Origin: Oscillospiraceae bacterium
GTDB taxonomy: Bacteria > Bacillota > Clostridia > Oscillospirales > CAG-272
Direction of reading: 5' to 3'
DNA: 40,048 nt
Assembly (NCBI GenBank): GCA_015064005.1
Contig: SVTA01000007.1
Coordinates: 1 to 40,048 of the forward strand
Made by a program: the position numbers and the translations under genes. Below, in pieces: positions 7,119 to 40,048 of the stretch. The notes under the pieces were generated by a model. That model searched no databases. It saw nothing but the letters and a program-made list of their open reading frames with translations, and was not told the origin of the DNA. The stretch's first letter is position 1, and each line of letters begins with the position of its first letter.

Positions 7119-9029
7119 TTATCCCTCCATATGCCGCCGCAGGTAACGGCGGAAGTGGGTGTCCTTATAGAGATGCGCGTCGAAGACCTCATGCACGTAG
7201 GGCTCGATGCGGTGAACGGTTTCAGTGAGCGCCGCCTTGGCCGCCTCGCGCTCCGCCTCGCTGTTGCCGCCAAGCAGCGCGTCGTACCAATCCGCATAGG
7301 AAAGGACGAGATCCGCGTGGTAAGCGAGATAACGGCGGGAGGGGTTGGGATCATCGTAGGAAAGCCCTGCGCTCTCGCGGAAGGCCGCCACCACACGGCG
7401 TGCCTCGGCAGAGTCGCGCCGCACGCGGTCGTAATCCTTTTCCCGCTCGGCGCGTACGCGGGGCGGATCAAAGAGGGTGGAAAGAGTGGTCAGGTACTGC
7501 ACCACCGACTCGGCCTCCTCGCCGAAGGCCGCCGTGAAATACTCCTTCACCACATCCTCAAAGCGGGAGTGCTTGTTCCACAGCGCCTTGGCCATAGCGT
7601 ACTGAGGCAGACCCGTGGGGAAGGCCGCGCGCTGCAGCTGGCAGCTGACCATGCCGTCAAGGCCGATCCTGTCAAGCCCTGCCATATCGGTGTGCAGGAT
7701 GCGGGCGCACTCCATATAACCGGGATCCACGTCGTGATCCCACATCAGATGATAGTCAAAATCAAAGCTGTCGCCGGGCAGGAGCTTCTGCCAGCTCCGC
7801 AGCATGGCCACGTTGGCGGCAACAGAGTGGGGCATGGTGAGCTTGTTGCGCTCAAACGGCGGGATCTCTACCTTTTCCGTTTCATCAAAATCCGCAAAGG
7901 CGTTGGTATAGGTACGGGAGATGGGAGCAAACATCAGCACGAAGCGATCGGGATTGCGGAAGGTTTCCTTCTCCGGCGCCCACAGCAGATCGCGGTAAAG
8001 CAGGCACACGATGCGGGTGGAGATCCCTTCAGCGGTGAGACGCGCGTCCACCTCGTTGAGGAGGCGTACGTAAAAATCGGAAGGAAGCGACTTGACGCAC
8101 TCCGGGCATTCACAGTGGTTGTTGGCACCGTCCGCCAGCCAGAAATGCAGGAAATTCACCTGCGGATGCTCCTTGCAGTAGTCCGCTACCGCATCCACCA
8201 TCCGCTGACGGGTTTCCTTGTTCGAATAGCAAAGATTGGTGTTCAGCGCCACGCCGCGGAACAGCTCCCGCTTGCCACCCAGCAGTGCCAGGTGTCGGCT
8301 GACCTCCTCGGGCAGCTCGCGGTTATCCACCACCCAGCCGGTGCCGGCAATGCCGAAGGGCTCACAGGTCCAGCCGTGTCCCATGGCGTGATAGTCAAGA
8401 GAGCGCAGGGCGATATCCTCCTCCAGCCGCGCCATCATGCGGTCTACGTCTGCATCGTTGACGGGAGAGGTGGGCATGGCAGGGTTGGCGGTCTGGTTAT
8501 AAAACCGCTCAAAGAAGCAGGAGGGCGTTTTAAACTGCACGAAATAGCCGTTCATACCCACCTTCGGCAGCCAGTCGATGGTGTTTTTCACGTGCTCGTA
8601 GGCCACAGCGCCCTCAATGCAGATGGCACGGTGACGGTAGGAGGGCTTTTCCTGCAGCGTCAGCGTCAGGGCTGCGGCATTCACCGTGCGGGCGGGCACG
8701 ATCTCGCCGGTCTTGCCCGGGAAAAGGAACCGGCAGCCCAGCTCCTGCAGCAGGCGGTAGACAGCCATCAGCACGCTGCGCTCGTTGGCGCCGGTGATGT
8801 GTCCCGCACCGTTTTCAACGGCAATGGAAAAGCCGTCGTGATCGGCATCGTAGGGCACGCTGCCGTCAAGACCCAGCCACAGCACGTGAGAAAGGGAGGC
8901 ATCCACCTCGCTGTAGACCCGCTCCTCCACAAAAAGCGTTCCGTCCATCTGACGGAGATAGCGGGAAAGCTCTTGCGCTGCAAAGGCCACGGTGGGGTGC
9001 TTGCCCACCCTTGCTAAAATCAAATTCAT
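7119..9029 (-). CDS. DUF4838 carbohydrate-active protein
   Basis: This 636-residue protein fits the DUF4838 family, which is related to glycoside hydrolases with a GH67/GH20-type N-terminal domain. Residues 1-120 form that alpha/beta domain, ending in YRLLQELGCRFLFPG (91-105), a signature of the family. The central barrel-like domain carries WLADGANNHCECPEC (297-311), whose Cys cluster is typical of DUF4838. The C-terminal ~150 residues are helical. There is no signal peptide, so it appears cytosolic, unlike many polysaccharide-degrading relatives. The catalytic activity is unproven. AAAGGAG lies 6-7 nt before the ATG. It is a single-gene unit with an extended -10 promoter upstream and a hairpin downstream; no sugar transporter is adjacent. 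Confidence 0.8.
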   Translation of the reverse strand: MNLILARVGKHPTVAFAAQELSRYLRQMDGTLFVEERVYSEVDASLSHVLWLGLDGSVPYDADHDGFSIAVENGAGHITGANERSVLMAVYRLLQELGCRFLFPGKTGEIVPARTVNAAALTLTLQEKPSYRHRAICIEGAVAYEHVKNTIDWLPKVGMNGYFVQFKTPSCFFERFYNQTANPAMPTSPVNDADVDRMMARLEEDIALRSLDYHAMGHGWTCEPFGIAGTGWVVDNRELPEEVSRHLALLGGKRELFRGVALNTNLCYSNKETRQRMVDAVADYCKEHPQVNFLHFWLADGANNHCECPECVKSLPSDFYVRLLNEVDARLTAEGISTRIVCLLYRDLLWAPEKETFRNPDRFVLMFAPISRTYTNAFADFDETEKVEIPPFERNKLTMPHSVAANVAMLRSWQKLLPGDSFDFDYHLMWDHDVDPGYMECARILHTDMAGLDRIGLDGMVSCQLQRAAFPTGLPQYAMAKALWNKHSRFEDVVKEYFTAAFGEEAESVVQYLTTLSTLFDPPRVRAEREKDYDRVRRDSAEARRVVAAFRESAGLSYDDPNPSRRYLAYHADLVLSYADWYDALLGGNSEAEREAAKAALTETVHRIEPYVHEVFDAHLYKDTHFRRYLRRHMEG

Positions 9030-39518: not shown

Positions 39519-39761
39519 ATGAAATCAACCGGTATCACCCGCCAGATCGACGAGCTCGGCCGTCTGGTGCTGCCCAAGGAAATCCGTAAGACCTACGGCA
39601 TCAACGTAAAGGACACACTGGAGATCTTTACCGAGGATGACCGCATTATTCTGAAAAAATACCAGCCCGCCTGCATCTTCTGCGGTGAGGCAAAGGATGC
39701 CAAGCTATTCGAGGGCAAGCGCATCTGCCCCGGCTGCCTCGCCCGTCTGAAGGAGCTTTGA
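39519..39761 (+). CDS. AbrB/SpoVT-type regulator with zinc ribbon
   Basis: This 80-residue protein has an N-terminal SpoVT/AbrB swapped-hairpin DNA-binding domain (GITRQIDELGRLVLPKEIRK, 5-24; then LEIFTEDDRIILKKY) and a C-terminal CIFC (52-55) and CPGC (70-73) pair forming a probable zinc ribbon. Such proteins act as transition-state or growth-phase regulators in Bacillota. AAAGGAG lies before the ATG; an upstream in-frame start overlaps the promoter and is rejected. The strong promoter suggests that it is highly expressed. Target genes cannot be inferred. Confidence 0.93.
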   Translation: MKSTGITRQIDELGRLVLPKEIRKTYGINVKDTLEIFTEDDRIILKKYQPACIFCGEAKDAKLFEGKRICPGCLARLKEL

Positions 39762-39825
39762 GGCAAAAGCCCGTAAAACCGATACCGTTTGCCTACATTT
39801 TGCCAAAAACAAAGGAGAGTGTCAT

Positions 39826-40037
39826 ATGCGCAGTGCCCTTAAGGACACTGCGCGTCGATATAGATCCGCTTGCGCGGATCTTCGATATACGCTGACGCGT
39901 TCGATATGTGCTGACGCACTCGATATGCTCACTGCGTGAGCGCGGATCTATATCATATCGAGCTTGAGCGTAGCGAAAGCATATCGAATTTGCCGCAAGG
40001 CAAATATATCGAGCCGAGCGAAGCGACGGCATATCGA
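39826..40037. repeat. Nested array of hairpins separated by TCGATAT/ATATCGA
   Basis: After a GCGCAGTG/CACTGCGC stem (39828-39835 with 39846-39853), TCGATAT occurs at 39855, 39882, 39901 and 39920, and its complement ATATCGA at 39955, 39981, 40006 and 40031: four left, four right, around a centre near 39940. Between successive copies lie small perfect stems: AGATCCGC (39862-39869 with 39874-39881), ACGC/GCGT, GTGC/GCAC, GCTCAC/GTGAGC (39927-39941) and ATTTGCC/GGCAAAT (39988-40005). ATATAGATCCGC also pairs with GCGGATCTATAT (39942-39953). Transcribed or single-stranded, this could fold into a ladder of short stem loops. AAAGGAG before an ATG at 39826 opens a 37-codon frame, probably fortuitous. 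No protein or known RNA family is recognised. Confidence 0.85.
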
Positions 40038-40048
40038 CAATTGAATAA

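Follow-up and report, generated by a model that had tools for sequence, protein, structure and literature searches.

IVS of 23S rRNA with an S23 ORF, as in Leptospira and Coxiella, are the closest described relatives of the locus analysed here. In the passages of PMC4990558 drawn on here, IVS are described as standing in place of small tetraloops of 23S helices, with borders that are complementary to each other and with RNase III as the enzyme that cuts them, and S23 is given as a protein whose function is not known, with a Xanthomonas relative forming a homopentamer. A further neighbour is the Gut-1 RNA (Rfam RF01706), which Weinberg et al. reported from the human gut only and took to be most likely a noncoding RNA, with no S23 or mobility link mentioned in the section cited (2010; PMC2864571). 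Among the open-licence literature matches listed, there was no account of ladders and no link between S23 and Gut-1; one figure legend, as excerpted, lists "23S rRNA IVP" among abbreviated domains (PMC10910872).

The window (the whole 40,048-nucleotide stretch analysed) ends in a ladder of 7-nt words separated by hairpins. The original prediction could name no element type for it; the ladder is most likely a copy of an S23/IVS-type mobile element, with no protein gene in the part covered by the contig, and this type is partly represented in Rfam as Gut-1. The family has in common with 23S rRNA IVS the S23 family, complementary borders and insertion at a former hairpin loop, and differs from them in sitting at a terminator, in having arms with side hairpins, in its many S23-less copies and, in most laddered S23 copies of the order, in carrying both arms upstream of S23. 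Since the window has no rRNA match and the ladder follows an AbrB-like gene, it is a variant and not an rRNA IVS. The features are as follows, with hairpins as read from the sequence:

39519-39761, + strand: AbrB/SpoVT-like gene, upstream context outside the element
39805-39823, + strand: A-tract and stem, probably the 5' half of the terminator used as target, judged from sister copies with paired halves
39828-39853, + strand: the element's end hairpin, of the same type that terminates other copies
39855-39861, + strand: word 1, TCGATAT
39862-39881, + strand: terminal side hairpin AGATCCGC/GCGGATCT, its stem copied in the centre
39882-39888, + strand: word 2, TCGATAT
39889-39900, + strand: side hairpin ACGC/GCGT
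39901-39907, + strand: word 3, TCGATAT
39908-39919, + strand: side hairpin GTGC/GCAC
39920-39926, + strand: word 4, TCGATAT
39927-39941, + strand: centre hairpin GCTCAC/GTGAGC
39942-39954, + strand: centre strand GCGGATCTATATC, complementary to 39857-39869 (13/13), from its own match and covariation across elements, and so a possible substitute for one arm of the terminal hairpin
39955-39961, + strand: word 5, ATATCGA
39962-39980, + strand: side hairpin with tandem G.A mismatches on the + strand (GCTT-GA-GC gta GC-GA-AAGC)
39981-39987, + strand: word 6, ATATCGA
39988-40005, + strand: side hairpin ATTTGCC/GGCAAAT
40006-40012, + strand: word 7, ATATCGA
40013-40030, + strand: side hairpin GCCG/CGGC
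40031-40037, + strand: word 8, ATATCGA; in gene-bearing in-facing relatives S23 begins just past this side
40038-40048, + strand: the contig's final 11 bases, continued in contig C107 of the same genome

The four TCGATAT words (starting at 39855, 39882, 39901 and 39920) and four ATATCGA words (39955, 39981, 40006 and 40031) that had been described with palindromic gaps are present at the window's right end, the ladder spanning 39855-40037 with side hairpins in 6/6 gaps and a further hairpin in the centre. The distances 27/19/19 and 26/25/25 are start-to-start spacings. The abrB-like gene noted beside the ladder was confirmed as AbrB/SpoVT-like (39519-39761), and such a gene was noted at just one other locus, L059. 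We do not take AAAGGAG-ATG for a gene start, with 39805-39823 looking like a terminator half and the ATG opening the end hairpin at 39828-39853. Contig C53 of the window's own draft genome (G000; 2,118,865 bases, 140 contigs, 80% complete) stops at position 40048, and the partner of the terminator half would sit past it; the element may likewise extend beyond this point. The ladder's far flank is off the contig, so that a terminator as insertion site of the window copy itself is presumed from its sister copies. There is no S23 gene in the 11 bases right of word 8 within the window, nor in the 1671 bases covered in C107, where these 11 bases recur. Between the AbrB gene and the ladder (39773-39808) lies a mere 3' remnant where the close relative G015 (L310) has a gene after AbrB, phosphopantetheinyl transferase-like by eye, indicating that the locus also underwent deletion.

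The outcome named beforehand as refuting, with neither further copies nor folding beyond that of shuffled sequence, did not occur: the ladder region folds better than its shuffles, and other copies exist (below). Against 200 dinucleotide shuffles, 39815-40048 as RNA scores z -5.5 (+ strand) and -6.8 (- strand) and 39826-40037 as DNA scores z -7.2, with the bare ladder (39855-40037, as RNA) at z -3.8 and 1/200 shuffles equally good. In the predicted RNA fold, words 1-8, 2-7 and 3-6 are paired with side hairpins between them, so that borders able to pair (words 1-3 with 8-6) are present in the window ladder, and a rearrangement is predicted for the innermost step by the centre; the prediction thus agrees with nested pairing of the words with side hairpins for the outer steps. 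The centre strand consists of GATAT-X beside the centre hairpin, X being a copy of a terminal hairpin's outer arm. The first six bases match the element's own centre fully in 18/27 distinct 4+4 elements (both ends tried), against 123/692 for centres of elements with other end stems, and with one element per distinct end-stem pair the figures are 14/23 and 68/506. The copying holds for most, not all, elements, and the terminal stem could thus exchange its own pairing for one with the centre.

The search for other copies called for at the outset returned many. The pattern TCGATATN{12,22}TCGATAT has 33 matches in the 2.1-Mb own draft genome, where the backwards-read word pattern has 0, and a similarity search of the same genome gave 10 further matches at E<=10, among which 6 reach E 1.5e-16 or better; some of the 10 are probably two ends of one copy. 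Further copies lie at the contig ends of C4, C32, C92, C107 and C130, as expected of a repeat that breaks the assembly, with an intact copy in C17. Across 39 genomes (own and relatives), the word pattern occurs in 19, some single matches looking like chance, and the reversed pattern 0 or 1 times per strand. When named genomes were scanned blindly for runs of three words, at least 119 stretches came up; of the 119 listed, 78 have palindromic gaps (threshold 0.6), with 77 of these titled Clostridia, Oscillospiraceae, Ruminococcus/Ruminococcaceae or Christensenella and the remaining one, an actinomycete, looking like chance, and the 41 non-palindromic stretches come from many phyla. The suggestion of a mobile non-autonomous repeat is supported.

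From the 53 elements collected (51 distinct cores, 40 oriented, some cut by contig ends), the plan is exactly 4+4 in 22/40 distinct oriented elements and 4+3 or 3+4 in 10 more, so growth by unit addition, which the differing gap palindromes had suggested, finds no support; 287/305 words are exact. This plan also bears on the view that template switching makes hairpins expand locally at terminators and that S23 genes are mere hitchhikers. Such expansion would suit the location of the elements at hairpins and the side hairpins being unlike one another; we consider it highly unlikely given how common the 4+4 plan is, the use of the same word in several families, and two copies from separate sites of one genome (G012) that share 97% identity over 634 bp.

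Hairpin sequences vary freely yet remain palindromic across the oriented elements, with gap halves being Watson-Crick in 0.905 of 923 cells, compared to a mean of 0.51 and a maximum of 0.574 in 500 controls in which halves were re-dealt among equal-length gaps. CRISPR arrays have longer repeats and unrelated non-palindromic spacers, and were ruled out by the 7-nt words and by this palindromic fraction. The gap closing pair is Watson-Crick in 153/154, meaning that every side hairpin begins exactly at the word boundary. Stem mismatches on the S23 sense strand comprise 51 G.A or A.G versus 2 T.C or C.T, and 15 G.T versus 9 A.C (the 11/53 elements without orientation were left out of the mismatch and closing-pair counts). 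Of the 51 G.A mismatches, 36 fall in one position, the hairpin beside the centre, a count inflated by descent; with this innermost hairpin excluded the comparison is 15 G.A to 2 T.C. Duplex DNA or a cruciform would weigh the strands equally, so the asymmetry indicates selection on one single strand, either RNA or ssDNA, and in the window this is the + strand. Folding and mismatches together back the earlier idea of a structured single strand, and the strand asymmetry disfavours the cruciform offered beside it.

REP/BIME and BOX repeats are short, intergenic, palindromic and partly modular, and the ladder differs from them in its fixed 7-nt word, its freely varying hairpins and its S23 partner. 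A DNA cruciform or REP/BIME-like repeat moved by an IS200/IS605-type Y1 (RAYT) transposase would agree with the resemblance of intergenic palindromes beside terminators to REP sequences and with the Y1 proteins found in 20/39 relatives, and is nevertheless very improbable in view of the strand-asymmetric mismatches, the linkage of the S23 gene to ladders, and the lack of a Y1 match in the word-pattern carriers G000, G003, G016 and G018 (drafts 80, 85, 97 and 93% complete; PF01797 in the case of G000).

At L050, one ORF lies between two half-ladders and encodes a four-helix bundle matching TIGR02436 (E 2.5e-23), PF05635 (E 4.9e-21) and the solved relative 2rld, with 5 chains (E 8.5e-23); PHROGs and PADLOC gave no match for S23. 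Elements with a gene carry the ladder and one S23 gene, many copies are without S23, and the arms of the window's lineage are built from the 7-nt word TCGATAT. Among the blind-scan loci there are 10 S23 genes; for 9 of these a TCGATAT arm is no more than 100 bp away, and the tenth (L143) has its own ladder with another word. Ten TCGATAT ladders adjoin an S23 gene, and their ten proteins form one clade (support 96/90). On the S23 tree, built without L285, L289, L293 and L307 and with word classes assigned partly by eye, all word labels together require 21 changes compared to 42.9 when shuffled (0/200). Physical linkage of words and S23 explains such shared descent, so the clade is no proof of recognition. 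The S23 proteins of L284, from the window's genus, and L296, from a different family, are nearly identical.

PF05635 is present in 27/39 genomes (own and relatives), with four matches in the own draft, for which no TCGATAT ladder was seen alongside. Many S23 genes of the window's order adjoin, by eye, ladders built from other words, for example GTGATGT, ATGATG, GTTATGA, GTGAAGT and AGTTATAT. Ordered 3+3 inverted arrays occur upstream of 21/55 S23 regions versus 2/649 control ORFs, the controls coming from all scan loci, other phyla included, and the 55 regions from 62 S23 ORF matches after leaving out duplicates and short upstream regions, with L293 counted twice as two fragments. The 34/55 regions without a 3+3 array include out-facing, hairpin-free and ladder-free loci. 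This array score replaced an earlier strict ladder detector, which was positive at 12/30 S23 loci (at L288 away from the gene) against 3 matches in 683 kb of controls. The survey of S23 loci covers 48 distinct places and L050, out of 69 listed, with L289 and L307 dropped as duplicates of L287 and L281.

Two layouts are found (F being TCGATAT and R ATATCGA words), in-facing F-R-S23 (L087, L091, L094, L097, L168 and L177) and out-facing R-S23-F (L050 and L184), and S23-less forms exist of both (the window; L053, L055 and L056); at L146 the ladder sits behind the S23 gene. The two layouts are circular permutations of each other, which may be a sign of a circular intermediate; that the element is a composite of two independent halves is a conceivable alternative. 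At L051 (1532-1954), two out-facing half-ladders surround an unrelated 141-aa membrane-protein-like ORF, a possible cargo, with no S23, and at L054 and L059 some arms have the word variant GCGATAT/ATATCGC beside TCGATAT arms of the same locus.

Against Rfam, the window ladder has no RF01706 match, none at E<=1, so that a known repeat family was found for relatives with other words and not for the window copy. RF01706 exceeds its gathering score in L263, L286, L277 and L301 (4/40 S23 loci tested), in each case in the half distant from S23 and in the same sense as that gene, with a weaker match on the other strand in L301. The Gut-1 RNA and the ladders are alike in consisting of hairpins joined by a constant linker word; they differ in that the RF01706 model (77 nt, linker UGAAAU) covers one half-ladder only. 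Across the 39 genomes, RF01706 is found in at least 27 at E<=0.001 and in at least 21 over the gathering score, and among 14 controls E. coli has a match below the gathering score. Among the matches listed, 24 genomes have both PF05635 and Gut-1, 3 S23 only, 3 Gut-1 only and 9 neither. Upstream of at least 9 S23 genes, at a distance of 137-174 bp, there is a Gut-1 match in the same orientation as the gene. Inverted pairs of Gut-1 matches ~20 bp apart are frequent (e.g., G000:C107:7289-7363 on + and 7383-7471 on -) and amount to two half-ladders, and the matches outnumber S23 genes, with at least 36 in G018 and at least 34 in G026.

These observations also bear on the reading of the ladder as a Gut-1-like structured noncoding RNA with a cellular function, spread by duplication and not selfish. 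Relatives matching RF01706 over the gathering score, the account of Gut-1 by Weinberg et al. and the selection on one strand speak for it; we nevertheless judge it improbable, considering the at least 36 matches at E<=0.001 in one genome, the terminator-loop insertion with an empty site, the near-identical S23 proteins in different families (L296/L284), and the 12/39 relatives without Gut-1 among the matches listed.

In support of an S23-type mobile element, the relative G015 has a whole terminator, AAAAAGCCGCCC-AACG-GGGCGGCTTTTTT, which is the empty site of G000:C17, where the element sits in the terminator loop and the flanks are 83% (674 bp) and 88% (1477 bp) identical. This was the only clean empty site in the searches, with none around L264, and in another empty-site search the terminator behind an orthologous gene was uninterrupted, though at just 68% identity. 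By eye, the other-word ladder L339 also lies between terminator halves. Locus-specific inverted repeats of at least 12 bp in the flanks are present in 5/35 own versus 5/1190 swapped flanks. Matched terminator halves are seen only in the window's genus and close named relatives, and ladders of other genera end mostly at a complete hairpin. TACG stands on both sides in G000:C17 but sister copies disagree, and a target-site duplication is not claimed.

Of 48 distinct S23 loci, 20 have a tRNA or tmRNA within ~600 bp upstream, in every case on the strand of S23 itself, and no tRNA was found on the downstream side; at L271 a tmRNA is on the opposite strand. The resolved gene-bearing sites are a terminator loop, positions just past tRNA terminators, the inside of 23S rRNA and the inside of RNase P RNA, with the orientation of the S23 element nearly always being that of the host RNA strand. 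At L267 (~2090-2113), the S23 element is bordered by the last ~27 bases of a tRNA-Cys gene and its terminator, as if mobilised with the element or left by an island.

Group IIC introns insert at intrinsic terminators in one orientation, and the family here does likewise; in contrast to such introns, the window has no Rfam ribozyme match and its own 80%-complete draft has no RVT_1. The resemblance to group IIC introns of terminator insertion in host RNA sense could speak for a retroelement that a reverse transcriptase moves in trans and in which S23 plays the part that Avd has in diversity-generating retroelements; PF05635 is held homologous to Avd in the portion of PMC10053308 cited here. We regard this as improbable, with RVT_1 in just 9/39 relatives and missing from 21/27 S23 genomes (10/14 even at 90% completeness or more), as well as the lack of RT in the own draft. 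Reverse transcriptase and Y1 transposase as helpers received no support from co-occurrence across the 39 genomes, and several carrier drafts have no RT or Y1 transposase; as RT is missing in 21/27 S23 genomes and Y1 in several carriers, we name no mobilising enzyme.

Beyond the order, PF05635 occurs in 29/149 genomes across the phylum. None of 23 phylum-wide S23 loci has a 3+3 array, and 16/23 S23 genes are flanked by inverted arms, compared to 17/506 with swapped flanks. Period-7 tandem repeats (threshold 72% identity) were found upstream in 5/23 and downstream in 6/23, versus 4/768 control segments, L374 and L376 in this set being from one genus; lags 4-6, 8-10, 12 and 13 gave none, lag 11 gave 1 and 2, and lag 14 gave 3 and 1. 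The 18/23 upstream regions below the lag-7 threshold of 0.72 include all three 23S rRNA copies. A set of 13 hairpin-free loci chosen by eye as tandem was lag-7 positive upstream in 8/13, a biased choice that is not evidence. In L377, L381 and L388, S23 lies inside 23S rRNA as in a classic IVS, on the host RNA strand (lag-7 0.62-0.69), and in L383 and L385, from one genus, inside RNase P RNA, again on the host RNA strand (lag-7 0.69-0.78), the RF00010 match being spread across 775 bases versus 367. By eye, the arms of the 23S rRNA and RNase P RNA copies are heptamer rows, so the likeness to 23S rRNA IVS extends to host-RNA sense and to period-7 arms, the latter just under the test threshold. 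From this we infer that the heptamer is the common unit, and the window ladder would be a heptamer row with looped-out hairpins between its words, a reading that the seamless hairpin bases fit.

Taken as a whole, an S23-type element with heptamer rows and hairpin targeting is a likely explanation of the ladder. In the mechanism we propose, S23, a homopentamer in the solved relative, would bind the heptamer row in RNA or ssDNA, and hairpins between words would be tolerated only if looped out seamlessly, so that the heptamers stay in a row. Pairing of the two half-arms would give a rod made up of four-way junctions; the terminal stem recurs a third time in the centre, and this copy could switch the rod to a second fold. 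The folded strand, with S23 supplied by another copy, would then be placed at hairpins by enzymes not yet named, the window copy most likely being a passenger that depends on S23 from elsewhere. That S23 itself reads tandem heptamers in a single strand is a tentative proposal, somewhat short of probable. More speculative, and to our mind rather doubtful, is the extension by which S23 proteins would be ring-shaped readers of tandem heptamers in single strands, driving tiny elements across the phylum without a reverse transcriptase or transposase of their own and homing to hairpin loops (rRNA, RNase P RNA, terminators), with the arms in gut Clostridia having become four-way-junction ladders with looped-out hairpins and a strand-exchange switch, circularly permuted layouts hinting at a circular intermediate, and Gut-1 being half an element. 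Under the S23-element explanation, S23 and Gut-1, both without a known role in the portions of the literature consulted, would belong to a single mobile system, for which tandem heptamers are a concrete ligand to test and hairpin loops the target. This would explain the location of IVS at former rRNA tetraloops, and the element would be one that moves although it carries no gene recognisable as a nuclease, transposase or reverse transcriptase.

Other repeats accompany the ladders at several loci. L018 (own genome, C102; TCGATAT) and L303 (GTGAAGT) have a common hairpin, GTTGAAAC..GTTTCAAC, at the ladder end, and an outer repeat with TATACCTTTTGG and CCCCCGTTTTTGGC or similar is common to L018, L303, L274, L279 and L280, possibly a second repeat family preferred by S23 elements. 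A module of CGGTAGAGCAGTATGAAATTGAATATACCTACCGACAG and a GGACGAGAAATT hairpin adjoins ladders of several words (G000:C17 and C130; L333 and L339) and occurs once without a visible ladder (L334), and may be a nested or hitchhiking repeat. In a viral collection, 9/70 contigs are over the palindrome threshold of 0.6, with L202, L205, L246 and L248 looking like tandem repeats and, by eye, L194/L255 and L201/L235 (two like pairs) and L198 being family members, which makes three distinct ladders.
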